The position numbers were made by a program, and so were the translations under genes. DNA of 64,000 bases from an uncultured Pirellulaceae bacterium (lineage in GTDB: Bacteria > Planctomycetota > Planctomycetia > Pirellulales > Pirellulaceae): assembly GCA_938083195.1 (NCBI GenBank), contig CALKCK010000019.1, forward strand, positions 62,001-126,000, read 5' to 3'. Under the pieces are notes generated by a model that saw only the letters and a list, made by a program, of their open reading frames with translations, did no database searches and was not told the origin of the DNA. Positions 6,215-36,910 of this stretch are shown here, piece by piece. Each line of letters starts with the position of its first letter. Position 1 is the stretch's first letter.

Positions 6215-9200
6215 ATGTTTTTGACCGTTTGTTTTTTGTCGCGACGATCAGTAATTAGGTTGATCGTTTTTTTTCTGACTGCGGTTGGGAGTGCTCCGGG
6301 GTTTGCGAAGCAGGAATCTGAATCTGATTTTTTCGAATCTCGAATTCGTCCTGTGTTGGTTGAACACTGCTACGAGTGCCACAATAGTTCAAACCAAGCG
6401 GAGGCCGAGCTAGCGCTTGACTGGCGACAGGGCATCCGAACCGAAACTGAGCATGGCAGGAGTGTGGTTCCTGGCAAGCCTGGCGAAAGCCTTTTATTGA
6501 AGGTAATCAAGCATCAAGTCGAAGGGCTTGAGATGCCCGAAGGGGGTGTCAAGTTGGAACCGGGAGTCATTGCCGATTTCGAAGAATGGATTAACCAAGG
6601 GGCGTATGACCCGCGGGAAGAGCCGCCTTCCTCGGAAGAGCTTGAAAAAGTGACGTCGTGGGACGCGACGCTGCAGGCTCGGAAGCAATGGTGGAGTTTT
6701 CAGCCAATTCTAAAACCAGAACTGCCGGAACCAAATGATTGGTCGAATCATCCTCTAGATCGTTTTGTTTATTCCCGCGCGCAGGCCAATCAGCTTGATG
6801 TTTCTCCGAAGGCAGAGGACGCTGTTTTAGCAAGGAGAATTACGTTTGCTCTGACCGGGTTGCCACCTGCTACCGCACAGTTGTCGGCGGTGACTTCCGG
6901 TGAACTATCCATCGAATCGTTAGTTGATCAGTGCCTTGAGTCCGAGCATTATGGTGAGCGATTCGCCCGGCATTGGATGGATCTCGTCCGATACGCTGAT
7001 TCGCACGGATCTGAGGGGGACCCCTCAATTCCCAACGCTTTTCAATATCGAGATTATTTAATTCGAGCGTTGAACCAGGACGTGCCGTATCGCGATTTAG
7101 TGAGAGAGCATATTGCGGGTGACTTGTTGGCAGAGCCTCGGATCAATAGTGAACTTGGGATTGATGAATCGGCGATTGGGCCGGCGCATTGGCGTTTGTG
7201 TTTTCATGGTTTTGCCCCGACGGATGCACTCGACGAAAAAGTCCGATTTACTGATGACCAGATTAATGTTTTTGGGAAGGCATTTTTAGGGCTGACGATA
7301 TCCTGCGCACGTTGTCACGATCATAAATTCGATGCCATCAGTCAGGCTGATTACTACGCCCTGTTTGGTGTCATTGGTTCGACAAGGCCAGCCATGCGAG
7401 ATGTGAGGGTTGATTCCCAGCGTGGGAACGCCCAGGCAAAGCTTATTGAGACGAAGGAAGAAATCAAATCGAACCTTGTGGTTGCTTGGCTGGAACGAGT
7501 GAAGCAGTTGCGGCGGGAGTTTCTTACTCAAGAGGAAGCGATGCAAAACGCTGCCAAGGGAGCGACGGAACCGAATCACGTGTTGTTTCTTTGGAATCAA
7601 ATGCAGGGCCATGAAGGTGATCCAGAAAGCTGGCAAGCGAATTGGAAGAAGTTAAAACGGCAGTGGTTGGAACAAAAAACGAATCGAGACAATGAACGCC
7701 GCACTGCCTCAGATCACTGGGATTTAGCCAAGTCAGATGATTTAAACGCGTGGTTTGGTGAAGGGTTTGATTTTTTTCAGTCGCGGCCACCGGGTCAAAT
7801 GAGAATTGCTCCCACGGGGCCTGATGTTGTATCCGCAATTTATCCAGGCGGTGTTTACTCTGGCCTGTTATCGGATCGTTTGCCTGGAGTGTTGGGTTCG
7901 CCACGATTTGAAGTGGATGAGAAATTGACAGCTTGGGTTCGTTGTGTTGGAGGTGGCCAGGCGACCGCAAGGTATGTCGTGCAAAACTATCCTCGTAACG
8001 GGACAGTTTATCCGATCAACGAGCTTAAAAACCAGAATTGGCATTGGCAGCGTTTCAATCTTGATTATTGGCAAGGTGATCAAGTGCATCTTGAGCTAGC
8101 AACGGCCAAGGATGCTCCGCTGCAAGTGCGTAATTCAGATCGTTCGTGGTTGGGGGTGCGAGACGTCGTCGTTCGAAAAACAGAAGCTGGCTCTCCCACA
8201 AATTATTCAATGGAACAATGGGAGATGATTCTGGGATCGGATCGACCGTCCATTCCGAAATCTCTGGCCGATCTGGGAGGGCGTTTATGCGATGAATACG
8301 AGTCGGCCATACGGGCGTGGGCGGCCAACGAGTTGAGTGATTCACAAGCGTTACTGCTCAACGCGCTGTTAAGAGATGGAATGATTCCTAATACGTCTCG
8401 AGAGTTACCTCCAGTCAGAGAGTTAGTGCTTCAATATCGAGAAATTGAAAAAGCGATGGCGTCGCCCTTTCGCGTACCTGGCGTTGTGGAGGCGGACTCG
8501 TATGACCAGCCATTGATGGAGCGAGGTGATCATCGACGGCTCAAGCAACCCATCCCGCGTCGTTTCCTTGAAGCTATTGATTCCACTCCTTATCAAACGG
8601 AATTGAGTGGCCGAATGGAGTTGGCAGATGACTTGTTCCGAGTTGATAATCCTCTTACTGCGCGTGTGATTGTCAATCGAATTTGGCTGTATTTGTTTGG
8701 CAAGGGTTTAGTGGTTACGCCAGACAATTTTGGTCGGCTCGGTGCTAAGCCAACCCATCCTGAGCTACTTGATTTTCTGGCGACTCGAATGGTCGATCAG
8801 GGATGGTCGATCAAGAAAATGGTTCGCTTTCTTGTTTTGTCAAAAACCTGGCAACAAACTTCTGAAGTATCGCCAGATTCAGCTCGCATTGATCCAGAGA
8901 ACCGTTGGGTCACTCATTACAACGCGAGGCGATTGGATGCAGAATCAATTCGAGATGCCATGGTGGCGACGACTGGGCAATTGGATCCAAAAATGTACGG
9001 CCCCAGTTTTTCACCCAATTCCAGCTCTAAGCGAAGAGCCGTTTATGTGAGATCCCAGCGAAACAATTTAGATAGATTTTTGGCGGTGTTTGATTCACCC
9101 GTTCCGTTTGCGACCACGGGTAAGCGAAACACGACGAATGTACCAGCCCAGTCGTTAACCATGATGAACTCACCGTTCGTAATGGAGTTGTCTAAAAACT

Positions 9201-10291
9201 GGGCCAATTCGGTAAAAACAGAATTCGCACAAGCATCGGATCAGAAGAAGATCGAATGGATGTTTGAAAAAGGTTTGGGAAGACCCATGAAGGCTCGTGA
9301 GTTAGAAATGTTTATGAGTTATCTCGAATCGACTCGAACGCTTGCTGAAAGCAAACAGCAACAATTCGACGTGTTGTCAAAGCGTCACGAACAACTCATG
9401 GTTCAATTAAGTTCAATTTTGGATCCTGCTCGAAAACAACTTCTCGCAGCGACCGGGACAAAATCGGTTACCTCAGATTCTTCTAGCGTTCTATATCGGT
9501 GGGATTTTTCAAAAGGTCCGAAGGACGTTCAGAGTGGCTCTCAATTAACGTTGAAATCGGGAGCGAAGATAGAGGATGGAGCCTTGGTCTTAGATGGCCA
9601 GAGTTTTGCATTAAGCTCGCCGATCGCAGAAAAAATTCATGAAAAAACGCTTGAGGCTTGGGTTCAGTTGGACGGCTTGGGGCAGAAGGGAGGGGGCGTT
9701 GTCACATTGCAAGATCTCGACGGCAATCAATTTGACTCGATTGTTTTTGCTGAGCTTGGTGAGCGGCAATGGCTTGCAGGATCTAATAATCATCGGCGAA
9801 CGTTATCTTTCGATGGATCGATGGAGGATTCTGGTAACGGAGAACCAACTCATCTTGCCATCACTTTTGCGGCAGACGGTACGATTGTTGGGTACCGGAA
9901 TGGAGTCCAATATGGGCATCCGATCAAAAAAACGGGGGCAATAGCCTTCGATGCGAATCGTTCCCGAATTGCGATTGGAATTCGACATGGAAATCAGACG
10001 TCCCAAGGACGCATGCTACGAGGGAGAGTGTTTGATGTCCGCTTGCATGATCGAGCACTTAGTGAAGATGAAATCGCAGCATCATTTGCGGGGCAACCGG
10101 TCGTTTCGCAAGCCGATGTCATGGCGCAATTATCTGATCAAAACAAAGGCCAAGTTTTACGTTTGAAAAATTTGATGGAACAAACGAGTGTCGAGCTTCA
10201 GGGGCTCAAAGAAACAAGGCCGTCTCTGGAGCCATTGGCTCGCGTCGCTCACGCTATTTTCAACTTGAAAGAGTTTATTTATGTTCGATAA
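6215..10291 (+). CDS. Planctomycete cytochrome C/DUF1549/LamG/DUF1553 protein
   Basis: 1358 residues, exported (signal peptide 1-32). Domains in order: a PSCyt1-type haem segment with CYECH near residue 53; DUF1549 from about 150 to 400, including the conserved [13 protein letters not shown] and [10 protein letters not shown]; a beta-rich middle part (about 500-680); DUF1553 from about 790 ([21 protein letters not shown]); and a LamG/concanavalin-like fold at about 1095-1292. The DUF1553 end ([12 protein letters not shown]) comes only after the LamG part, so LamG is inserted within DUF1553. The stop overlaps the DUF1501 gene by 11 bp, so both are co-translated. These pairs are thought to act on complex glycans or sulfated substrates outside the cytoplasm; no enzymatic activity is established. 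Confidence 0.95.
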
Positions 10292-11744
10292 AACCAAAAC
10301 GAGGGACGCGGTTACCCGTCGACAAATGTTGCGCCAGACCTCGACAGGGTTTGGTTTGCTGGCGCTTCAGGCGATGATGTCTCAAGGCAGTTATGCCATG
10401 CCGTTCAATTCATCGAAATTGCTAGGAGCGACTAATGACAAAGTCCCGGTTTCCCATCACGCGGCTAAGGCAAAGCATGTAATTTTCTGTTATATGTCCG
10501 GCGGAGTCTCCCATGTGGATTCCTTTGATCCTAAGCCGCGACTGCAGCGGGACAATGGTAAGCCGATGCCAATGAAGGTGGAACGCACGCAGTTTAATCA
10601 AAATGGTAATGTGATGGCGTCCCCGTTTAAATTTAAGAATTGGGGGGAATCCGGTCTGCCAATTAGTTCGATGTTTCCAAAAATTGGAGAGCTCGCAGAC
10701 GAGTTGGCGGTCGTCCGGTCAATGACGACTGCCGTCAACGAACACGCGCAAGGGAACTATGCGATGCATACGGGGTTTCCGTTTATTGGGCATCCGAGTG
10801 CGGGGGCATGGTGCAATTACGGATTGGGTACTGAAAATGAAAATTTACCTGGTTTTGTGGTATTACAAAGTGGCGGAGCAGTGGTGCCCCATGGAGGCGT
10901 GGGGTTGTTTAGTAATGGATTTTTGCCCGCGCAAAATCAGGGTTCAATTATTCAAGCCGATCGTAGCCCAGCGGTTGGTAATATTCGACCGAGTCTAGGT
11001 TTACGGGATCAACGCAATCATCTTGATCTTATTCAGCGGTTGGATCAGTCGTATCAGACGAGTGCAAATCATGCCGGTGTCGAAGCGGCAATTCGGAATT
11101 ATGAAACTGCTTTTGAGATGCAGACGGCAGTTCCAGAAATTTGTGATTTATCTAAAGAAACCGAGGCAACTCGGGAGATGTATGGTTTGAATTCCACGGA
11201 GACCGATAAGGCAGCCTACGGTCGCCAATGCCTGTTAGCGCGTCGGTTAGTCGAGTCGGGTGTTAGATTTATCGAATTGAGTTGTATCACCAAAGGGATC
11301 GGCGCTGGCGGGGCAGCTAACCCTTGGGATCAGCATGGCGCGTTGGCTAAAGGGCATGGCGCAATGGCAAACCAAGTTGATCAACCAATCGCAGCGCTGA
11401 TTGCTGATTTAAAACAACGAGGACTTTTGAAAGATACGTTGATAATTTGGGCGGGAGAATTTGGCCGGACCCCGTTTTCTCAAGGATCCAATGGACGAGA
11501 CCACAATCCTTTTGGTTTTAGTGTTTGGATGGCAGGAGGTGGTGTCAAAGGTGGAACTGCTTATGGTGCGACCGATGAATTCGGTTATCACGCAATTGAA
11601 AATCCTTGCAATGTTTATGATTTGTGGGCGACTGTGCTTTACCAGCTCGGGATTGACCACGAGCGATTGACGTATCGATACGCAGGTAGAGATGTCCGTT
11701 TAACGGACGTACATGGCAATGTGTTGCATGACATTCTTGCGTGA
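10281..11744 (+). CDS. DUF1501 domain protein (alkaline-phosphatase-like fold)
   Basis: 487 residues. The N-terminus has a Tat-like signal ([18 protein letters not shown]). Family motifs include [40 protein letters not shown] and a closing [11 protein letters not shown]1501 belongs to the alkaline phosphatase/sulfatase superfamily by fold, and the D, H and E residues in these motifs are likely metal ligands. It starts inside the end of the cytochrome/DUF1553 gene (11-bp overlap), the usual partner arrangement in planctomycetes. The reaction is unknown. Confidence 0.95.
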
Positions 11745-11821
11745 TGAATGAACGTCTAACCAATTAAAATGGGGTCCGTCCTGGAGGCATTCTAAGTGGA
11801 CTAGATATTTGTCGTCCAAGC

Positions 11822-13738
11822 TTATTGATCGTGCCAAAATCTTGGAGCGAAAAGAACGAGGATCGGAAACACTTCCAATCGGCCGAGCATCATTAGCCAG
11901 ATGAATAAGGATTTGGAAGGCACGCTGAAATTTGCGTAATTCTCAGTCGATCCAATAACGCCGAGTCCAGGCCCGATATTGTTGAGAGTTGAGGCGACAG
12001 CGCTTGCTGAATCGATCAGTTTGTTTTGTTGATTTGTCCCCCAGGTAAGGTCTGATTCAAACGCGATTACGAACAGGAAACCGAAGGCGAATAGAGCGAT
12101 GATCAGCCCAAAATAAACAAGGATCGAATGGCGAAGGGATTGGTCTTCGGTTGCCTTACCCCCTAGTTTCAATAGTCGTACCTCTTTGGGTTGAAAGGAG
12201 CCTTCGACCTCAATTCGCAAGATTTTGAAAAATAGGATATGGCGAATCACTTTCATTCCACCACCAGTGCTGCCAGCGCATCCACCGACAAACATCAGCA
12301 ACAGCAGTAGCCCCCGGCCAAATTGATTCCATTGATCAAAATCTGCGGTTCCGTAACCTGTCGTAGTGATAATTGAAACGACTTGAAACAGGCTATTTCG
12401 AAAAGCAGTTTCGAACGGTTGGAAATCGACGTTGCCGGAGCGCATTCCAAAAACAACAACAAAGATAGTTGCGAAAGCGATGATCGCGAGATAGGTGCGA
12501 AACTCGAGATCAAGAAATAGTTTTTTTGGCTTCCCTCTGAGGATGAGGAACAGCAATAAGAAATTTGCGCCCGCCAAGGTCATAAATAAGATGACGACAT
12601 ATTCAATCGCCCGTCCGTTAAGCCCTTGATTGAAGAAGTGGCCAAGACTGTCGTTGTAAGTGCTGAAGCCCCCCGTGGCCATCGTCGCAAAGGCATGGCA
12701 AATCGAATCAAATGGCGACATCCCGAGAAAAAATAGAATGACAGCAAGGATAATATTGAGCAGGAGGTACATGCCCGCAAAGCGCCATGCAGTGTGTTGC
12801 ATTCTGGCACGTGAGCTTTCCTGAGTGGGCCCGGGCATTTCGGTTCTCATCAATGCTTTGCCCGCAGATCCTTGACCAAGCAAAACCACAAATAAGACGA
12901 TGATTCCTAGACCACCAAGAAAATGTGTACTGGCTCTCCAAAAAAGAATACAGTGGGGGACGAGATGGGGATCCTCTAAATCGCAAATGACGGTCGCGCC
13001 GGTGGTACTAAAGCCCGATTGCGATTCGAACAGGGAGTCTACCAGTCCCATCTTGACCCATCTCAATCGATAGTGGGTTGTACGATCTGCCGGTGCAGCC
13101 GACTCCTCGCCAGGTCCGATTAGCCATTGATTCCACAGCGATTGCTTCTTCAGCCGAGTGAATACCGCGGGGGCATTGGCGAGCCCTGTGGCTTCGATGA
13201 ATTCCCGAGTCGACAGCCCTCGAGCTGTCGCATTGGCGAGTGTTTCAAGGACGATTAAATTCTCAGTGTTCGCCGGACTGGCGGAATCTTGGCCTGGGGG
13301 ATTGGTCTCTTTCCACTGGTCGGTTTCTCGCCAAGTCTCCCAAGCCCTCCAGCGAGACGAGGCGACGACGACTGTATCGGGTTCATGAAAGACTCGGATC
13401 GACGGGCCTCGACTTGTGCCGCTAAAAATGTAAGGCATGGCGCCCAGCACGCTGGCCAAGACCCAGCTCAAGCCGACGATCGCCATCGCTTCTTTACGGT
13501 AGATTTTTGCGTTTCCAGCGGAGCGGCCGTATTGAAACATCAGACCACCTAAAATCCAGCAAATGACGGCACTGTAAATCAGTCCCCAAATTCCGTCTTT
13601 TTCTGGCTGGGTTGCTCTTACTGCTGCGTCGGTATGAGATCCAATATTTGGATCAGCCCAAACCAAACTGAACAACATAAAGGTGCCGATCAGAATTGTG
13701 AGCACGCCAAGCAGTTTGGAAAGGATGCGAAAATTCAT
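11822..13738 (-). CDS. trkH: TrkH-family potassium uptake protein with an extracytoplasmic insertion
   Basis: 638 residues, larger than typical TrkH/KtrB (440-500). The four pore loops of the selectivity filter can be read in order: FSTTGAT (243-249), [14 protein letters not shown] and NNIGPG. The Gly in each third-position motif is kept. Trk/Ktr pores import K+ or Na+ with a cytoplasmic TrkA/KtrA regulator, which is not in this window. Between the end of the first pore-domain helix (about residue 107) and the first filter loop (from about 230) lies an insert of some 120 residues that other family members lack. The start has a good membrane helix (residues 8-28). Convergent with the DUF1501 gene. 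Confidence 0.93.
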
Positions 13739-13810
13739 GAGATCGGTCGGATGGTCGGAGGATTACTCTGAATCACGAAAGAGCCATCTACATTTGACAG
13801 CTCTACAAGT

Positions 13811-14284
13811 TTAATGCTCAGGAACAGTTTCGATCAATCGATTAGCTGAAATTTTAGCACCAATCAACAGACTCACTGGAAAGCAAAGCAAATACACAAG
13901 TGTCATCGTTTTCTTTTCGGGAGCGTCTTGGATGATTGTCTGCAAATGCATGACAAACATCAAAACAGCAACAAATACCGCATGGTTGAAGAAAGCGAAC
14001 GGTGCGGTTCGTACAATCAGCCATCCAATCCCGGCACATAACGCACAATTAAAAACGACAGCCAGGCAGAACATTGGAATAGGAATGACTGACCACGGAT
14101 CTGAAACCATAATATTTTCTTGCTCTTCCACCTTGAGGCTTAGAAAATTTACAAAACTGGGAAACATCAAATAACCCAGTAAGTAAAATGTTGAGAACAG
14201 CGACAACACTGTCATCACGTAACCGGAAGCAACGGTGAGGAAACTTCGCAGCAACAAGGCGGGCGGCAAGGATGGTTGAGACAT
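13811..14284 (-). CDS. Small integral membrane protein, function unknown
   Basis: 157 residues with four predicted membrane helices (about 15-42, 66-90, 95-115 and 126-145). Between helices 1 and 2 is a loop with LKVEEQENIMVSD. I do not recognise a named family. It precedes trkH on the same strand with a 72-bp gap, so it may be co-transcribed, but no functional link is visible. Confidence 0.72.
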   Translation of the reverse strand: MSQPSLPPALLLRSFLTVASGYVMTVLSLFSTFYLLGYLMFPSFVNFLSLKVEEQENIMVSDPWSVIPIPMFCLAVVFNCALCAGIGWLIVRTAPFAFFNHAVFVAVLMFVMHLQTIIQDAPEKKTMTLVYLLCFPVSLLIGAKISANRLIETVPEH

Positions 14285-14374
14285 GCGAAATTCTTATGCT
14301 TGTGAAAATCGCATTGTAGGCCAGTTGTCGCGAGGCTTGAACCCGAGTGATCCCGGTTGGCAAGCGTCAACGAA

Positions 14375-15034
14375 TTAACGTTTTTCGGTTTCCACATTCT
14401 GTTCTGCAACATTTAGCCCCGTTAATTGCTGCTTTTCAAACACGATCATCGCATCGCAATCTTGAAGGTCGGGGCCAAGGGTAACGGCGGTGACAAAACG
14501 ATTTCCATCGGCAAAAAACTTCAGAAAAGATTCCGTCTTAGCAATCGTACCGTTAGGGAGTGTTTCTGATGTCTCAATGACTAATCCATCAACTCGCGAT
14601 TCGAGAACTCGCCAGTTTCCCTGAGAACCGTCTCGCATCACTTGTCCATCCATCGAAACCATTTCTAAATCGTTTTCGAGTGTGCCGTCTGTTTTATACT
14701 CAACCGCCATGATCGTGGAGAGAAAACTGGTAGCTTTGGCAAGGACAAGTTCTTGTTGCTCAGGAGTCAGTGACGAAATTTTTTGTGTCAGTTTTGATTG
14801 ATCCAAGACTGCATTGCCAAGCCAAATCCCCGGCAAGTCATCCAAAGTGAGCTTGGCTTCAACCGGAGTCGTCGTTGGGATGGCGGTGGAAGCGATTTTG
14901 TTACCGGGATCCGTGGATTGACTCTTATCAGCGGTTGCCGATGTTGGTTCAGAGCAACCCAGCATCCCAGTCATGGAACCAGCGAATAAGAAGCTGATTA
15001 AAATGAGCATTCGTGAAGATCTAATTTTCAACAT
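14375..15034 (-). CDS. Secreted lipoprotein, lipocalin-like, function unknown
   Basis: 219 residues with a type II signal peptide and lipobox MLGC (lipidated Cys at residue 27). A Ser/Thr-rich linker follows (SEPTSATADKSQST), then a compact domain from about 60 to 205 with the pattern 'LPGIW ... DGTLEND ... GNWRVLE ... GLVIET ... NRFVTAV'. That alternation of W/G and beta strands is reminiscent of small lipocalin-like domains. The neighbouring lipoprotein at 15071 has a similar layout (GTW ... NGQLET ... GKIGTWKF), so the two may be distant paralogues. Function unknown. Confidence 0.75.
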   Translation of the reverse strand: MLKIRSSRMLILISFLFAGSMTGMLGCSEPTSATADKSQSTDPGNKIASTAIPTTTPVEAKLTLDDLPGIWLGNAVLDQSKLTQKISSLTPEQQELVLAKATSFLSTIMAVEYKTDGTLENDLEMVSMDGQVMRDGSQGNWRVLESRVDGLVIETSETLPNGTIAKTESFLKFFADGNRFVTAVTLGPDLQDCDAMIVFEKQQLTGLNVAEQNVETEKR

Positions 15035-28124: not shown

Positions 28125-29336
28125 TTAATCTTTCCGAGTGAAGATTGCGCTAGACTCAGTGTCTTGGTAATCACGAATCAAATCATCCGGTTTTTTCTCG
28201 ATTTCAAGATCGTATTTCGAGATTGGAGCCGGTCTGCCGTAATAATATCCCTGGCCTAGTTGGAATCCCATCTGGACCAGAATGTCGTGGCACTCTCGCG
28301 TCTCCACTCCCTCGGCGAGTGTTTGAATCCCGAGGTTGTTGACAAGCGTTGCAAACAAGGCGACTAATTCTTGACGCTTGATCGAGGCGTGTTCGATGTT
28401 GTTCGTCAGTTTCATGTCAAATTTGAGGAAGTCAGGCCGTACTTCTCCAAGTTCCACCAAGCGAGCTTTTCCAACGCCAAAATCGTCAAAGGCCAGCATG
28501 ATATTCAAGTCTTTGAGAACTGAGCAAAGCTCCCCCATCATGTTCATGTTCGTCGCAGCCGCTTCATGAATTTCGAGCGTAATTTTTTGCTCGGGTGCCG
28601 CTTCGCGAACTTCTCTTAAGGAATCATAGAGCGCTGAATTATCAAGTTCTTTGGGGTGTGTATTAACGAAGAGGTTTGAATCCGAGCCGAACGATGTACC
28701 GATTTCAACTCCACGTAGCCGGAATGCTTCACTCAATTGGGCTTCCATATTTAATTGTGATGCGGCATGAAACATTTCCTGTGGCGTTTGCAAGCCAAAC
28801 AGTCGGCTGCGCCCGAGAACTTCGTAACCTATGAATGCCTGATCTTCGAGTCGAACGATGGGTTGGAAGTGTGGGTAGAGTCCGCCTTCACTGATCAGTT
28901 TTTCGAATTGGATCATTGCAAGTGCCTGATCACAAACGTCTTCATGAATGGTGTTATAAGAAGTAGCACTTTCCAGTTTCACACCCACGCGAAATACTAG
29001 AGCTGCAAAATGAATTAAATCGTTTTCCTGAATCTCTATTTCACCGGAGATTTGTTCACCGTTAACGAACGTTCCATTGGTACTTCCAGATTCCCGAAGC
29101 ATCAATCGTCCATCGTCCGATGCGACAATTTCAGCATGGTTTTTTGAGATGCATCCGTCGGGAAGGTGCAGCGATGAATCCGATCGTCTGCCGATTGAAA
29201 ACGGAGTCGAATGGATTGGGAATTGGCGATTAGGCTGTTCCGGGTCGATTTGACCTGTCAAAAACCAACGACATTTGCTCGACGTTTCTCCCGTTTGCTG
29301 CGGGAGGTTTGAGCTGATTGCATTCAGGTCGATCAT
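28125..29336 (-). CDS. FHA-EAL domain protein (phosphothreonine reader with c-di-GMP phosphodiesterase fold)
   Basis: 403 residues from the ATG at 29336; a TTG at 29387 would add 17 residues but neither has a clear Shine-Dalgarno site. The FHA domain (about 40-120) has the phosphopeptide-binding residues G49-R50, S64-x-x-H67 and STNGT (85-89). The EAL domain (about 145-385) keeps all catalytic residues: EVLGR (E172), FVNTHP, LEIHE, FDDFG, LKFD and AEGVET, then GQGYYYGRP. It is probably active as a c-di-GMP phosphodiesterase, regulated by binding to a phosphorylated partner. The neighbouring kinase could supply that phosphothreonine. Cytoplasmic. It is divergent from the AAA+ ATPase gene. Confidence 0.9.
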   Translation of the reverse strand: MIDLNAISSNLPQQTGETSSKCRWFLTGQIDPEQPNRQFPIHSTPFSIGRRSDSSLHLPDGCISKNHAEIVASDDGRLMLRESGSTNGTFVNGEQISGEIEIQENDLIHFAALVFRVGVKLESATSYNTIHEDVCDQALAMIQFEKLISEGGLYPHFQPIVRLEDQAFIGYEVLGRSRLFGLQTPQEMFHAASQLNMEAQLSEAFRLRGVEIGTSFGSDSNLFVNTHPKELDNSALYDSLREVREAAPEQKITLEIHEAAATNMNMMGELCSVLKDLNIMLAFDDFGVGKARLVELGEVRPDFLKFDMKLTNNIEHASIKRQELVALFATLVNNLGIQTLAEGVETRECHDILVQMGFQLGQGYYYGRPAPISKYDLEIEKKPDDLIRDYQDTESSAIFTRKD

Positions 29337-29788
29337 AAGTGGATTGGGTGTGAATCGTAAATGGTTTATTCGGGTGCCATCAACCAAGCGAGGTGATTCG
29401 CTTCAATACTTGAAACAAACAGGGCCACGTTTATTGGTCGTTTCGCCTGGAAAATTTGTAAGGATGTGAATTCTCCGTAAGGTCTTTTAGCTTTCAAACA
29501 AACGTCAGGTCGAAACAAAACAGACAAAATACCTAAGGTTGAGAAATGATCTGCATAGCCTTCCCCAGTCCACTAGAAACATGTTCTAGGCGTCGACAAT
29601 TGTCGCGTTAGAAAAAGGGTTTGTAGGGGTCGTGTCAGTTAGTTGGGGTTTTACATCCCCTTCGGCCGAGGCGGAATCGCTTAAATCCATCCAGGTCGTT
29701 CCTTTGAGATTCGCCATGAGAATTGGACCGGAGGCGACGATAGTCCTTTAGAATGGAAGATCAACTAGTCCCTATTTGAGATATCGCC
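29337..29788. other. Divergent intergenic region with paired palindromes
   Basis: About 450 bp between the FHA-EAL gene and the AAA+ ATPase gene. It holds an imperfect palindrome at 29573-29589 (CTAGAA-5-TTCTAG) and a perfect one at 29594-29605 (CGACAATTGTCG), 4 bp apart. I see no RNA gene. No sharp promoter box pair was found. Confidence 0.5.
29573..29605. promoter_or_regulatory. Candidate operator: two adjacent palindromes
   Basis: CTAGAA and TTCTAG form 6-bp arms with a 5-bp centre (29573-29589), followed by the perfect 12-bp palindrome CGACAATTGTCG (29594-29605). Position between two divergent genes fits a transcription-factor site; no regulator is identified. Confidence 0.35.
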
Positions 29789-31117
29789 ATGTTTACTCAA
29801 ACAACGCCAAGCTTGGGATCTGGATTGCTCGCGACGATTTTGGCCGACGAGTCATTTCGTCCCTCCGAGCCCAATTCGCTTCCAGAAACAAGTTTGCCAA
29901 ACTCTCTTATCGAGAGCTTGTTGATCAAACGGCTGGCGGTTGTTGGAATGAGTAGCGGACGTCAACTTTCGAATGATCTGTGTTTGCCTTTTAGTGTGTT
30001 GCAAAAGTTGTTTGGACAACTGCGATCGAGGCAGGTTATCGTTCACAATGGCTCGGCACCACTCAATGACTATAGTTACACTTTGACCGAAAGTGGTCGT
30101 GAGCGAGCGGCGATTGCAAATCAGCAGTGTTCTTATGGTGGTCCGGCTCCTGTTCCTCTGATCGACTATGTGCTTAGCGCGGAGGCACAGACGATTCGGG
30201 CTGAGTCACCAAAGCGGAAGCAACTTCGAAGTGCCTTTGGCGATATTTCGATTAACGAGGCGCTTTTCGAAAACTTGGGGCCGGCAATTAATTCTGGTGC
30301 TGGATTGTTTTTGTATGGAGAGCCAGGAAACGGTAAATCGACGCTGGCTCATCGAATAACCCGGTGTTTTGGTAATGAAATCTGGGTGCCGCATGCGATT
30401 TATGAAGATGGTCATATCATCAAGTTTTTCGATGCCGCTTATCACAAGCCTGCACAAGATGATTCTAACTCCCTGATCCATGATGCCGCCTACGACAAAC
30501 GCTGGGTGAAAATTCGCAGGCCGACCGTGGTTGTTGGTGGTGAATTAACGATGGATTCGCTTGAGATTCGATACAACGCGAATAGCAATGTCAGCGAAGC
30601 TTCGCTGCAAATGAAAAGTAATTGCGGCTGCCTCTTAATCGATGATTTTGGGCGCCAGCGAATCGAACCGCAGGAATTATTGAATCGCTGGATCGTCCCA
30701 CTGGAGAGTCGTGTTGACTTTCTTAAATTAGCAACTGGCAAGAAAATTATGGTGCCGTTTGAACAGCTAATAATTTTTTCAACCAACCTCGAGCCGAGCG
30801 ATTTGGTAGATGAAGCGTTTCTCCGCCGGATCCCCTACAAAATTGAAATTAGTGATCCTTCTACCAAAGAATTTCATGTTCTATTTGAAATTTACTGCGA
30901 CAAGTTAGGGTTTGAATATGACGTTGAAGTGGTTGATTATTTAATCGAAACTCATTTCACCTCGGCCTCGCGTCGGCTCAGGCGGTGTCATCCGAGAGAC
31001 CTTTTGACGCAGATTAGAAATTTCTGTGCCTACAACGAACTGCCAATTGAAATTCGTCCCGAGTATTTTGATCGAGTTGTCAAAAGTTACTTTACGGACG
31101 TACTAAGCAAGGCTTGA
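29789..31117 (+). CDS. AAA+ ATPase with N-terminal winged-helix domain
   Basis: 442 residues. An N-terminal winged-helix-like part lies at about 38-110 (LPFSVLQKLFGQLRSRQVIV, YTLTESGRERA). The ATPase core has Walker A GEPGNGKST (177-185), Walker B CLLIDD (281-286), sensor I IIFSTN (328-333) and an arginine-finger-like FLRRIPY (344-350); the helical lid runs to the end. It is cytoplasmic, with no membrane segment. Family-level function is unknown; such ATPases remodel proteins or DNA. The next gene on the same strand, 321 bp on, is the kinase-tubulin fusion, which suggests a shared process. The FHA-EAL gene is divergent upstream. Confidence 0.88.
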   Translation: MFTQTTPSLGSGLLATILADESFRPSEPNSLPETSLPNSLIESLLIKRLAVVGMSSGRQLSNDLCLPFSVLQKLFGQLRSRQVIVHNGSAPLNDYSYTLTESGRERAAIANQQCSYGGPAPVPLIDYVLSAEAQTIRAESPKRKQLRSAFGDISINEALFENLGPAINSGAGLFLYGEPGNGKSTLAHRITRCFGNEIWVPHAIYEDGHIIKFFDAAYHKPAQDDSNSLIHDAAYDKRWVKIRRPTVVVGGELTMDSLEIRYNANSNVSEASLQMKSNCGCLLIDDFGRQRIEPQELLNRWIVPLESRVDFLKLATGKKIMVPFEQLIIFSTNLEPSDLVDEAFLRRIPYKIEISDPSTKEFHVLFEIYCDKLGFEYDVEVVDYLIETHFTSASRRLRRCHPRDLLTQIRNFCAYNELPIEIRPEYFDRVVKSYFTDVLSKA

Positions 31118-31438: not shown

Positions 31439-34400
31439 TTGAAATCTGAACGACTAGAATCTCAGCGCGACATTCTTGGCTACACGCTTCAGGATCGGAT
31501 TGGTACTGGCGGGTTTGGTGAGGTTTGGTCAGCCATTGCCCCGGGCGGGCTCTCGAAAGCGTTAAAGATCATCTATGGATTCCATGATGAGAAACGTGCG
31601 CAGTCGGAACTGAAGGCGCTCGATCGAGTCAAAGCACTAAGGCACCCGTTTCTGCTTTCATTAGAACGAATTGAAGTTTTCGAAGGCCAGTTAGTCGTGG
31701 TCTCGGAATTAGCTGACAAGAGCCTTGCTGAAGCATTCAACGAATATACCGCTAAGGGGCAGCTGGGAATTCCCAGAGAATTGGTGCTTCGTTATCTCCG
31801 TGGGGTCGCGGAAGCACTCGATTACATGCGGGAGGAGCATACGCTCCAGCATCTCGATATTAAACCGGAAAACTTACTTCTAGTCGGAGATCACGTTAAG
31901 GTCGCCGATTTTGGACTAATCAAAGATATTGACGCCGGTTCCCATTCGCTGATGTCCGGGATGACACCAGCGTACGCAGCCCCGGAGTTATTTGATGGTT
32001 GTCCAGGAATGCATAGTGATCAGTATTCTTTGGCAATTGTTTACCAAGAAATGCTAACGGGCACCCGTCCTTTTCCAGGAAATACACCTGCCCAACTCGC
32101 CGCGCAGCATCTCCATGGAAAGCCTAACCTAAGGCAGTTGCCTAAAGGTGATCAGCCGATAGTCGCCAAGGCGCTCTCCAAAGACGCAAGTCTTCGTTAC
32201 GCCAATTGCCGAAAATTCATTAACGAACTAGTTAATAAAAAAAGAGCCGTTAAAAAGTCGATTCGCCGATCGGACATTTACCTCGATGTCGAATCTAATA
32301 CGATGACCTTGCCTGGTTCTAACAATAGTCAGCAGGTCACACCGACGCTTTCAGGGATGGGATTGCCGTACAAGGGAACTGAACTGAAATCGTTAGGCCC
32401 GCCTGACTGCAACCCTCAACAAGCCAAGCTTCGGCCGACCTTGGTAGTCACGATCGGCGCGACTGCTAATCGCATTGCTCACAAATTAAAAAAGCAAATT
32501 GGTTGTCGGCATGGAGATCTCGCAGATTTACCTTCGACTCAAATACTCGCGATCGACACCGACCGTCAGGCGTTAAATGAATTATGTGCCATTGGCGTTA
32601 ACGGCGCTTTGGGCGTGAGCGAGGTCATCGACATTCCGCTGCGAAAGCCAGAAGTTTATCGCGACCGCTCGCACTCGTTGCTCTCATGGTTGGGACGACG
32701 ATGGATTTATAATGTGCCAAGGTCACTGCAAACGGAGGGGTTGCGTCCCCTTGGAAGACTGGCTTTTGCCGATCATTTTGACATGATTTGCAATCGAATT
32801 CAGGAGAGTCTTCGAAAGATCATGACGGTTGAAAACCTGGCAAAGTCAGCAGATAAATTAAACATTGACCCTGGAGAATTGTCGCCCCGCGTATTTTTGG
32901 TGACCTCAATTAGTGGCGGGGTTGGGAGCGGAATGGCTTTAGATCTTGCCTACACGCTCAAACTGTTGATGAACGAGAACAATATCGATTCCAGTACGCT
33001 TTCTGGGATTCTGTTGCATTCGACGTGTAAGCAGAAGCGAGATCCGACTCTCTCGACTGCTAATGCTATCTCGTTTTTAACGGAGATGCGACATTTTGTT
33101 GAGCGTGGATTTACGGGAGATCCAACGATCGGGTTACCTGATTTCGAAAATGAGCCACCGTTTGATTTTACTTACTTTAATGATTTAGGTCATGATCTGC
33201 GGTCGAGTGAATTTGATCACAATCTTGATCAAATCGCGGAGTACATTTACTTGTCGAGCACCTCGCGTTGCGCTGAGTTTTTGGACAAGTGTCGAGATAT
33301 CGAGTCCGAATTTGATCATTTTTCCCTGCGAACGTTTGGGATGAGTTCTACCGGACCAGGGAATTTGAAAACTGGACAAGACGCAGTTAGCCGTGTGGCG
33401 AGCGGACTGGTTTATCGCTGGTTAGGCGGTGACCGTGGAATTCAGTTTAACGCCAATGAATTTGTTGACCGACAAATGGAGATGGCAGGCTTGGAAGAGT
33501 CTCAGTTAGTTCAGAGAATATCGGTTGCAGCTGAGAATGTATTTGAAGGCAAAATTGGAACCATCGTATCCGACGCTAAAGAGATAGTTTTAGCCAGTTT
33601 GGTTGATTCGAGAAGTACGATCCAGGAGTTTCTCGATGGTGTATTTGGCACTCCTGACGTTAGCGAAACCGTAAGCGTCGATTTAGAAGTTTGCCATGAG
33701 ATGCAAGACCTTACCCAGCAGATGGCCAACAGAGATGCAGAGCTTTTGCGGGCTGAGATATTAAAAATGGTGAGTAACCAAGAACTAAATATTTTTAAGG
33801 CTCAGCGATCAATCGATTGTCTACTCGGAAGACTCGATGGCCTGCAGGTTAAGGTGAAGCAGGCTATTCGCAATCATCGCGCTGATTTGGGAACCAAGCT
33901 GAATGATTTACGTCCGTTTTCTGACGAGCGGGCAAGGTCGAGTCGAGAGTTTGAAGAGCGATTTAATCGAGCGGTCAATGCTTACTGCGATGCCAGGTGC
34001 ACTGAGTTTTACAGACGTTTTACTACGGCTTATTACCGGACAGTGACTCGTAAATTGGAATCAACGCGCGAGATGGTCAATAAGTTCAAAATTAAACTTG
34101 AAAAAATACAGGTTGATTTTGAATCATTCGAGGAAGTCGAGGAGGTAGAGACGACTGACGAATTCGATATGAATCAGATTTTCAGCGAGAGTATCAATCG
34201 TGATCTAGACCAACAAATCTTGAAGACGGAACTGCAAGTTTACCAATCACTGATTCGAGATTGGGGCGATTATGTCAGCGTGTTCAATGATGCATCGCTC
34301 ATGAGGAGTCAGCTGCCGCAGCAAATTAGAACGTCAGCTCAGCGAGTGCTAACCAATGCTTATAAAAAAGTTTCATTGGATGATGTGGTGCAAAAAGAGA

Positions 34401-34741
34401 ATATCGGTCCTGAACAATTGGTGAAGTGGGCGAAAGATCGCGTGCGTGAGGCGAGGCCCAAAGTCGACGATTGTGGCGGCACCTGCCGTTTGATGGTCGG
34501 GATGCCGGCTTACTCGGGTGAATCAATGCTGCCGAGGATTTTAGAAAGTAAATTCAAATTAAAGAATTGTGCGGTGCATGGCACTCAAGGCAACTTCGTG
34601 CTTTGTTTTGAAGGGGAGGACGTGCCGCTGGCCAATGTTGCGTTTCGTTTACTGGAGAGCCAGCCTAACGCTCCAGAATTAGTAAGGCGAATTAATACGC
34701 GAAATGATATTGATTGGTCGACGCTCGACGAATTACTGTAG
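31439..34741 (+). CDS. Ser/Thr protein kinase fused to an FtsZ/tubulin-like GTPase domain
   Basis: 1100 residues from a TTG start with AAAGGA 5 bp upstream. Residues 15-270 form a full Hanks-type kinase: Gly loop IGTGGFGEV (21-29), Lys43, HLDIKPEN (138-145, so Arg of HRD is Leu), DFG (157-159) and APE (181-183). After a linker (280-330), residues 333-510 show FtsZ/tubulin features: VVTIGATANRI in place of the first Gly-rich loop, ILAIDTDRQAL like FtsZ's NTDAQAL, and SISGGVGSGMALDLA (490-504) for the GGGTGTG signature. This fits the Tubulin_2 (tubulin-like) family. The last 500 residues are mostly helical and may oligomerise. No membrane segment, so cytoplasmic. Substrates and polymerisation are unknown. 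Confidence 0.9.
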   Translation: MKSERLESQRDILGYTLQDRIGTGGFGEVWSAIAPGGLSKALKIIYGFHDEKRAQSELKALDRVKALRHPFLLSLERIEVFEGQLVVVSELADKSLAEAFNEYTAKGQLGIPRELVLRYLRGVAEALDYMREEHTLQHLDIKPENLLLVGDHVKVADFGLIKDIDAGSHSLMSGMTPAYAAPELFDGCPGMHSDQYSLAIVYQEMLTGTRPFPGNTPAQLAAQHLHGKPNLRQLPKGDQPIVAKALSKDASLRYANCRKFINELVNKKRAVKKSIRRSDIYLDVESNTMTLPGSNNSQQVTPTLSGMGLPYKGTELKSLGPPDCNPQQAKLRPTLVVTIGATANRIAHKLKKQIGCRHGDLADLPSTQILAIDTDRQALNELCAIGVNGALGVSEVIDIPLRKPEVYRDRSHSLLSWLGRRWIYNVPRSLQTEGLRPLGRLAFADHFDMICNRIQESLRKIMTVENLAKSADKLNIDPGELSPRVFLVTSISGGVGSGMALDLAYTLKLLMNENNIDSSTLSGILLHSTCKQKRDPTLSTANAISFLTEMRHFVERGFTGDPTIGLPDFENEPPFDFTYFNDLGHDLRSSEFDHNLDQIAEYIYLSSTSRCAEFLDKCRDIESEFDHFSLRTFGMSSTGPGNLKTGQDAVSRVASGLVYRWLGGDRGIQFNANEFVDRQMEMAGLEESQLVQRISVAAENVFEGKIGTIVSDAKEIVLASLVDSRSTIQEFLDGVFGTPDVSETVSVDLEVCHEMQDLTQQMANRDAELLRAEILKMVSNQELNIFKAQRSIDCLLGRLDGLQVKVKQAIRNHRADLGTKLNDLRPFSDERARSSREFEERFNRAVNAYCDARCTEFYRRFTTAYYRTVTRKLESTREMVNKFKIKLEKIQVDFESFEEVEEVETTDEFDMNQIFSESINRDLDQQILKTELQVYQSLIRDWGDYVSVFNDASLMRSQLPQQIRTSAQRVLTNAYKKVSLDDVVQKENIGPEQLVKWAKDRVREARPKVDDCGGTCRLMVGMPAYSGESMLPRILESKFKLKNCAVHGTQGNFVLCFEGEDVPLANVAFRLLESQPNAPELVRRINTRNDIDWSTLDELL

Positions 34742-34781: not shown

Positions 34782-35753
34782 TCATTTCCCCAAAACGTAT
34801 GCAAAAATTAACGGCGCGACGATCGATGCATCGGAGTTAATCATAAATCGAGGTGTCTCGGCAGCTAATTTGCTCCAAGTGATTTTTTCATTGGGTACGG
34901 CGCCTGAGTAAGAACCATAGGAAGTGGTTGAGTCCGAGATTTGAGCGAAGTACTGCCAGAGTCGGATGTCTTTTTTCAAATCTTGAATGATCGTGGGAAC
35001 CGCGCAGATTGCGAAGTCTCCGGCAATCCCACCGGCAATTTGAAAGAATCCAATCGGAGCGTGAGCATCCGTTTCTAAATACCAGTTGACAAGATGTTCC
35101 ATTTGCTCAGTCCCTGAGCGCAGAGCATGGTGCGATTGGATTTTCTTTTCAATGCAACGCGCAGCAAATATATTTCCGAGAGTGGAATCTTCGAACCCCG
35201 GTGAGTAAACCGGTATCTTTTTTTCAAAAGCTGCCAATAGCCATGAGTGGGACGGATCGATCTGAAAGTGAGGTTCCAGTACACCAGTTTCAAAGAGCTT
35301 GTAGAAAACCTCATAGGGGAACAGGCTTATTCCGTTGTCGGCATTCTCTGCACAGACGGACATGAAATTTCCTTCGATATGTCGCATCACGGTTTCAGGA
35401 ATACACGTATCGGTGACGCGATTGAATCCTTCTTCGAGGAGTGCGGTCTCGTCAGTCGGCGAGAGGTCTCGATAGTTTGGGACCACTCGATATTCATTGT
35501 GGGCAACCAGATTGAAGACATCTTCTTCCAAATTAGCACCCGTGCAGGAGATGGCGTGGACTTTGTCCGTGCGGATCATTTCAGCCAGTGAAATTCCGAG
35601 TTCAGCGGTGCTCATCGCTCCGGCTAAGCTGACCAGCATTTTACCCCCGCCTTCGAGATGCTGTTTATAGGATCGTGCCGCGGCGACAGTTTCTCTAGCG
35701 TTGAAGTGTAAGAAATTCTGGTCCAGAAAATCAGAAATTGGGGAATTCGACAT
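34782..35753 (-). CDS. Deoxyhypusine-synthase-family protein (possible homospermidine synthase)
   Basis: 323 residues. The fold signature of deoxyhypusine synthase is there: LVSLAGAMSTAELG (NAD site), SCTGANLEEDVFN and SGAVPNEKITWSK, where K295 aligns with the catalytic Lys that takes up the aminobutyl group. Bacteria lack eIF5A, so bacterial members are thought to act on polyamines, for example making homospermidine from putrescine. The agmatine-to-putrescine genes lie 15 kb upstream, which fits. It is divergent from the gene at 36032. The exact acceptor is not known. Confidence 0.9.
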   Translation of the reverse strand: MSNSPISDFLDQNFLHFNARETVAAARSYKQHLEGGGKMLVSLAGAMSTAELGISLAEMIRTDKVHAISCTGANLEEDVFNLVAHNEYRVVPNYRDLSPTDETALLEEGFNRVTDTCIPETVMRHIEGNFMSVCAENADNGISLFPYEVFYKLFETGVLEPHFQIDPSHSWLLAAFEKKIPVYSPGFEDSTLGNIFAARCIEKKIQSHHALRSGTEQMEHLVNWYLETDAHAPIGFFQIAGGIAGDFAICAVPTIIQDLKKDIRLWQYFAQISDSTTSYGSYSGAVPNEKITWSKLAAETPRFMINSDASIVAPLIFAYVLGK

Positions 35754-36031: not shown

Positions 36032-36910
36032 ATGGAAGACTCAATCATTATCCCTGTAAATTTTTCGAAGAAACAAACAATGCACGCCAGTCAACTCGCA
36101 GAACTTGGAAGTTGGATCGCACTTCATGCTGGTAATTTCATTTACGGCGAAAATCATCAGCCTTCACTTGCAGCTACCAACTATTGGACGGCTTCTAAAG
36201 TACGGCTTCAGCGGTGGGTCGCTGCATTGAAGATGTTTGAGCAAGATTTTGCCAATTGCGACCCTGGCCATGACCCATGGCCAGCATTTGAAATTGTTGT
36301 GCAGGAAATTTTATTATCGGAATTATTGACGCGGGTTTGGTCGGCGACGGTCATTACCCATGATTGGTATCATCAACAAGATGAAATGCACGGAGTCGCT
36401 CATTCTGTTCATGTCGCCCATATCGAAGCCAAGAACCGGGCAATCCGAATTCTGCTTCACGCCCGACCAGAAAATGAGATCGTATTTGATCGGCTGAATC
36501 GACTGCGGCGTCGAGTGGAACGTTGGACAGATATGTTTTTGGGGCAACTTCCCAATGGCGAAAAAGCTTCGATTTTTGGTTTCGACCGTAATCGTGTTCT
36601 TGATTTCAATCGTGAGCAAGACGATGCGTTGGAATCTGAAATTGTGATGCGGCAACGCGTGATTGCTGCTTCATTCTCAGTCGACGTGATCCGAGATCAA
36701 ACGCCTTATTCCGCCAATCCAGATCTCAATCGAGAATTGGCAGCTGGAATTTTAGACTTTTTCACTGCAGATCGATTTGATTCAAATAGCATGCCCAAAT
36801 CAACTCGAATGATCTGGATGGAAAAAGCTCAAATCGATACTCAATTGTTACTTGACGAACTCGTCGACTTTGAGAACGAGGCAGAACAGCCTCGGTTTTC
36901 TCTCAAGTAA
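36032..36910 (+). CDS. Hypothetical cytoplasmic protein with a His-rich segment
   Basis: 292 residues, no signal peptide or membrane helix, mostly helical. A conspicuous segment at about 110-136 has HDWYHQQDEMHGVAHSVHVAH, with six His and several acidic residues in 21 positions, which could bind a divalent metal. The C-terminal half has RLNRLRRRVERWTDMFLG and is basic. I do not recognise a family. It is divergent from the DHS-family gene and convergent with the O-methyltransferase gene. Confidence 0.65.
   Translation: MEDSIIIPVNFSKKQTMHASQLAELGSWIALHAGNFIYGENHQPSLAATNYWTASKVRLQRWVAALKMFEQDFANCDPGHDPWPAFEIVVQEILLSELLTRVWSATVITHDWYHQQDEMHGVAHSVHVAHIEAKNRAIRILLHARPENEIVFDRLNRLRRRVERWTDMFLGQLPNGEKASIFGFDRNRVLDFNREQDDALESEIVMRQRVIAASFSVDVIRDQTPYSANPDLNRELAAGILDFFTADRFDSNSMPKSTRMIWMEKAQIDTQLLLDELVDFENEAEQPRFSLK

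Follow-up and report, generated by a model that had tools for sequence, protein, structure and literature searches.

A kinase-fused tubulin-like protein and its conserved association with AAA ATPase and FHA-EAL genes in Pirellulales-type planctomycetes

Introduction

What does a protein kinase do when it is joined to a tubulin-like GTPase in bacteria in which FtsZ is not found? The question is raised by a gene in a 64,000-nucleotide stretch of DNA from an uncultured Pirellulaceae bacterium (hereafter the window), whose product we call PK-FtsZl1. The kinase-FtsZl1 fusion itself is not new: Makarova and Koonin described the FtsZl1 family in 2010 together with kinase-FtsZl1 fusions in four Planctomycetes (PMC2875224), and the planctomycete fusion was noted again in 2023 (PMC9871819). 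The 2010 paper reported a coiled-coil region and a helical C-terminal part in FtsZl1, with nothing past helix H5 that could be aligned, and one of its reviewers pointed out that an EAL gene adjoins the FtsZl1 copy of Pirellula staleyi (PMC2875224). Our literature searches returned no report of a characterised FtsZl1 function, and searches for FHA plus EAL in planctomycetes, or for an FtsZ-like protein with a kinase and c-di-GMP in a planctomycete, returned nothing. Here we report that PK-FtsZl1 of the Pirellulales-type clade belongs to a module, conserved although its gene order shifts, that also comprises an AAA ATPase and an FHA-EAL protein; this association is new. With these partners the planctomycete FtsZl1 branch gains its first concrete, testable wiring: grouped around a tubulin-like GTPase are a kinase, an enzyme of c-di-GMP metabolism, a reader of phosphothreonine and an AAA ATPase, in bacteria where FtsZ is not found.

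A Hanks-type kinase joined to a predicted tubulin fold

The 1100-residue reading frame proposed in the original prediction is real, with a TTG start and an AAAGGA-like ribosome site just 5' of it. The gene and the parts of its product are as follows.

31439-34741, + strand: PK-FtsZl1 gene, 1100 aa, TTG start (Pfam, AlphaFold, fold search, 74-sequence conservation)
31481..32245, + strand: kinase domain, aa 15-269 (Pfam Pkinase, conservation)
aa ~270-330: Thr-containing disordered linker
32438..33427, + strand: tubulin-like nucleotide-binding domain, aa 334-663 (Pfam, AlphaFold, fold search)
aa ~664-1010: predicted helical insertion (AlphaFold)
34481..34660, + strand: predicted C-terminal beta-alpha-beta-beta-alpha domain, aa 1015-1074 (AlphaFold, aligned range of the fold search)
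R1084/R1088/D1090/W1093: conserved end motif (74-sequence conservation)

Residues 15-269 match Pkinase (PF00069) at 7.3e-31, above the Pfam cut-off, and the kinase landmarks that had been read from the DNA are all in place (K43, H138-L139-D140, D157-F158-G159 and A181-P182-E183). K43, E57, D140, N145 and D157-F158-G159, the Hanks-type catalytic set, are retained in at least 73 of 74 homologues, and this complete set within a PF00069 domain is what the protein shares with PknB-like Ser/Thr kinases. However, it differs from them in having no PASTA or transmembrane part, in being fused to a GTPase and in carrying HLD instead of HRD family-wide. The original prediction had pointed to this Leu as a sign that regulation by activation-loop phosphorylation may differ. 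Leu139 is confirmed, and the Arg that marks RD-type kinases is missing, but 73/74 homologues share HLD, which makes the lack of this Arg a trait of the whole family and no quirk of the window protein.

The second half of the protein matches Tubulin_2 (PF13809) over residues 335-622 at 9.1e-26, with 91.4 bits against a curated cut-off of 27, and its match to the classical Tubulin/FtsZ family (PF00091) stays at 13.2 bits, below the cut-off of 33. DTDRQAL at 373-379 and SGGVGSG, a T4-type loop, at 492-498 are found where the original prediction placed them. Among the 74 homologues, the glycines of the GGxG(S/T)G loop are almost fully kept (G493 and G498 in 74, G494 in 73 and G496 in 68), D502, N542 and E549 are invariant, and so are R1088 and W1093 near the C-terminus. 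The T1 loop of the window protein varies from the family pattern, reading GATAN instead of GGTA. As judged from conservation, both halves of PK-FtsZl1 are functional.

AlphaFold modelled the full-length protein with a mean pLDDT of 85.7 and residues 322-1100 with a pLDDT of 89.7 and a pTM of 0.83 (adding 321 to the numbering of this model gives the protein position). Searched against solved structures, the 322-1100 model matched CetZ (3zid, Z 25.9 over 296 residues at 3.8 A) and tubulins (Z ~24 over ~340 residues), and Foldseek concurred on a tubulin/FtsZ fold with a best E of 1e-5; nearly all matches of the full-length model to a viral structure library were kinases. The fold anticipated from the motifs is therefore the one predicted. 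PK-FtsZl1 resembles CetZ, tubulin and FtsZ in this predicted fold (Z 24-26), in the T4-type glycine loop and in the DTD after the second strand, whereas identity in the structural alignments is 10-17%, the PF00091 cut-off is not reached, a kinase stands in front and an insertion of ~350 residues follows.

The claim that the protein ends in a 500-residue helical tail survives in part. AlphaFold does place helices after the GTPase domain, at 672-1005, but strands and helices come next at 1015-1074, and the structural alignment takes in the protein up to residue 1081 and CetZ up to its last part. From this aligned range we infer that 1015-1074 is a tubulin-type C-terminal domain with about 350 helical residues inserted ahead of it, so that the tail is probably an insertion of that length followed by the C-terminal domain that it has displaced; the exact topology given here for the tubulin part is likewise tentative. 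The window protein belongs to the FtsZl1/Tubulin_2 family, and a long helical region followed by a C-terminal domain is common to both. The elements past H5 were left unplaced in 2010, whereas here they would belong to a tubulin fold that is complete but interrupted by a helical insertion, which answers, as a prediction, the 2010 question of whether the C-terminal half is tubulin-related.

Across 68 sequences, no column between W661 and G1013 is 90% conserved. No T7 acidic motif is thus apparent at the presumed position of T7, and FtsZ-type hydrolysis between subunits may be absent or lost. This pattern, together with the large insertion behind the GTPase domain and the GATAN loop of the window protein, is consistent with a non-polymerising scaffold, in which the tubulin-like part would bind nucleotide only and hold the kinase beside the FHA-EAL and AAA proteins. 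However, a scaffold of this kind sits poorly with the complete predicted tubulin fold, its likely C-terminal domain included, and with the statement that every superfamily member characterised by 2010 polymerises (PMC2875224), and we consider it unlikely, although still a credible reading.

Distribution of PK-FtsZl1 in planctomycetes without FtsZ

The tubulin part of PK-FtsZl1 was found in 134/297 genomes of the class, with close relatives (GTPase region >90% identity) in Mariniblastus and other Pirellulaceae genomes. Outside the class, few genomes have Tubulin_2 proteins; these are more distant, and the two that can be read from their start (L003 and L004) have no kinase motif. The expectation that classical FtsZ is lacking was borne out, as no PF00091 FtsZ was detected in the window's own genome (92% complete) or in 197/198 class genomes, the lone match lying inside a PK-FtsZl1. 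The idea of a second tubulin-like GTPase fell away, since PK-FtsZl1 is the sole tubulin-superfamily protein found in that 92% complete genome.

The lack of FtsZ and the predicted tubulin fold both speak for PK-FtsZl1 as a replacement that forms the division or budding ring of these planctomycetes. A division ring, however, should not be so dispensable as a protein carried by 134 of 297 class genomes. PK-FtsZl1 is absent from near-complete genomes such as the single-contig G415, whose congeners G435, G506 and G559 have it, and FtsZl1 elsewhere mostly coexists with FtsZ (PMC2875224). Given that most class genomes, many near-complete ones among them, are without both proteins, it is improbable that PK-FtsZl1 serves as the division tubulin, and the replacement of FtsZ is the most improbable of the readings weighed here.

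A patchy distribution would also fit an anti-phage defence system in which a kinase and an AAA ATPase act with an FHA effector, and PADLOC returned generic kinase matches and weak IetA-like matches to the AAA protein. However, the kinase matches say no more than that a kinase fold is present, the IetA match spans ~50 residues, and the peptidase partner by which an IetAS-type system is recognised was not among the neighbours scanned. Further, the module is conserved over many families and a c-di-GMP phosphodiesterase would be an unusual defence effector. A role in defence is accordingly very doubtful.

The PK-FtsZl1 copies of groups f107, f108 and f110 form a separate clade, which we provisionally call Gemmata-like after planctomycetes that bear FtsZl1. 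At the 20 loci examined in this clade, no AAA or FHA-EAL gene lies nearby. Many Gemmata-like genomes hold two to four PK-FtsZl1 copies that fall into at least two sub-clades, and it is possible that these diverged paralogues are heteromeric tubulin-like subunits. In two f108 genomes (G300 and G303) there is also a copy of the module type. Gemmata massiliana has been listed with FtsZl1 (PMC4672568). One locus (L186) has a tandem PK-FtsZl1 pair at 7563-11021 and 11083-14625 with neither AAA nor FHA-EAL gene.

A conserved module with AAA ATPase and FHA-EAL genes

The interpretation given in the original prediction is partly supported, but it missed a conserved partnership with the two genes immediately upstream.

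29789..31117, + strand: AAA-type ATPase, 442 aa (P-loop GEPGNGKS, Walker B LLIDDFG, sensor-1 STN)
28125..29387, - strand: FHA-EAL protein, 420 aa (phosphothreonine-binding FHA and EAL with all eight catalytic positions; activity predicted)

In the Pirellulales-type clade, 81 loci had enough flank to be scored, and an AAA gene was present in 69, an FHA-EAL gene in 78 and neither in 3. These loci came from 40 other-genome loci and 80 contigs selected as best matches to the window protein, with a few genomes in both sets, so the counts are not fully independent. Cultured species that carry the module include Botrimarina hoheduenensis and Lacipirellula limnantheis. In the window both genes lie upstream of PK-FtsZl1, AAA on the same strand and FHA-EAL divergent, and at least four arrangements occur among the loci, with FHA-EAL upstream and divergent, upstream on the same strand or downstream; the association therefore survives rearrangement. 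Only three AAA relatives and a single FHA-EAL gene occur in the window's own genome, which puts chance proximity at <1% per locus and makes it negligible.

With 57-97% identity, the AAA ATPase is the best conserved of the module's proteins. Its nearest solved chains are of spastin, Cdc48 and Vps4 types, and as this similarity is confined to short P-loop and sensor stretches we assign no subfamily; a winged helix at its N-terminus was a guess without Pfam confirmation and was set aside. Two paralogues in the same genome (G000:C37:29888-31141 and G000:C21:178277-179527, represented as L089 and L090) are 50% and 40% identical, one of them beside a MoxR-type AAA gene. FHA-EAL proteins also occur in class genomes without PK-FtsZl1, such as G024, G087 and G387, which points to roles outside the module, and co-occurrence of FHA-EAL and PK-FtsZl1 at the level of whole genomes is for this reason uninformative.

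No other gene, vWA and OmpA included, was comparably conserved in the flanks of related loci. A GGDEF gene was rejected as a fixed fourth partner, being present in only 26/81 loci, chiefly where the EAL domain is eroded. These neighbourhoods bear on the membrane-remodelling proposal of Makarova and Koonin, by which FtsZl1 would form kinase-controlled, GTP-driven filaments on the inner membrane. PK-FtsZl1 does belong to the same family, and vWA, GTPase, kinase and OmpA-like genes lie in other FtsZl1 operons (PMC2875224). However, its conserved partners are signalling and AAA proteins, hydropathy shows no transmembrane segment in PK-FtsZl1, the AAA ATPase or the FHA-EAL protein, and the proposal itself drew on gene context and met with a reviewer's objection (PMC2875224). 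We regard membrane remodelling of this type as distinctly unlikely for the module.

Phosphothreonine reading and the fate of the c-di-GMP enzymes

In the FHA domain R67, S81, H84 and N104 are invariant (68/68), and the residues of a phosphothreonine reader are thus present. The EAL domain occurs in two forms. Form A (49 proteins, the window's included) keeps E189, N242, E272, D301, D302, K322, E362 and Q379 in 48-49/49, and so has all eight catalytic positions of EAL-type c-di-GMP phosphodiesterases; form B (19 proteins) has most of its EAL catalytic residues eroded. A divergent GGDEF-type gene lies near 20/21 form-B loci with enough flank. Three of these were scanned for domains (REC-GGDEF-CBS in two, only CBS recognised in the third), and the GG(D/E)EF motif is lost in all form-B GGDEF proteins (e.g. 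L049, L067, L078 and L122). At five form-A loci a GGDEF gene is present whose motif is intact. The pairing of an eroded EAL with a motif-less GGDEF indicates that two c-di-GMP enzymes decay together, and it sets the family apart from known EAL-type phosphodiesterases, as does its N-terminal FHA reader. Since the FHA residues are kept throughout, these data suggest that the central task is to read the mark set by the kinase, with c-di-GMP turnover as an output that depends on the lineage.

Common ligands of FHA domains are pThr-x-x-Leu/Ile and pThr-x-x-Asp. In linkers extracted by alignment from 65 module-clade representatives at 60% identity, T-x-x-[LI] was observed 58 times against 37.9 expected from composition shuffles, and in the partner-less clade it was not enriched (5 vs 5.5 expected). 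S-x-x-[LI] showed no enrichment in the linkers. The T-x-x-[LI] signal was weaker at 50% clustering (p 0.016) and had gone at 45% (n=12); it also comes from a trial of several patterns, so as a sign of FHA binding the enrichment is suggestive only.

A proposed signalling module around PK-FtsZl1

The domains, catalytic residues, predicted tubulin fold and conserved co-location, with a phosphothreonine writer and a reader in one module, lead us to propose that PK-FtsZl1 is a GTP-binding, tubulin-like switch linked to phosphorylation and c-di-GMP. In the reading that we tentatively prefer, while granting it somewhat less than an even chance, PK-FtsZl1 would stand at the heart of a signalling module of three genes. 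Its tubulin-like domain would bind GTP and through it switch self-association, to which the long helical insertion would contribute, and in the resulting clusters the kinase part could phosphorylate threonines of the kinase-GTPase linker. The FHA domain would then bind the linker phosphothreonine and recruit the EAL enzyme, so that c-di-GMP could be lowered or sensed locally where the PK-FtsZl1 assembly forms. The AAA ATPase would dismantle or remodel this assembly, and the cellular output might be membrane or surface organisation. A stronger version, which strikes us as somewhat unlikely, wires the tubulin-fold GTPase to two signalling currencies: its own kinase would write the marks that FHA-EAL reads, polymer assembly would set local c-di-GMP and the AAA protein would serve as the disassembly machine.

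Several observations count against the signalling module. The 19 modules that have lost EAL residues imply that c-di-GMP breakdown may not always be part of the function. FHA-EAL occurs away from the module, and both partners are missing from the neighbourhood in the Gemmata-like clade. Finally, no conserved acidic T7 motif is apparent after the GTPase domain, and FtsZ-style hydrolysis between subunits may be absent.

Two further genes lie downstream of PK-FtsZl1 in the window. A deoxyhypusine/homospermidine synthase-like gene (34782-35753, - strand) has relatives at some related loci only, and a 292-residue reading frame with no Pfam or NCBIfam match (36032-36910, + strand) has relatives beside the module in 17/80 loci.
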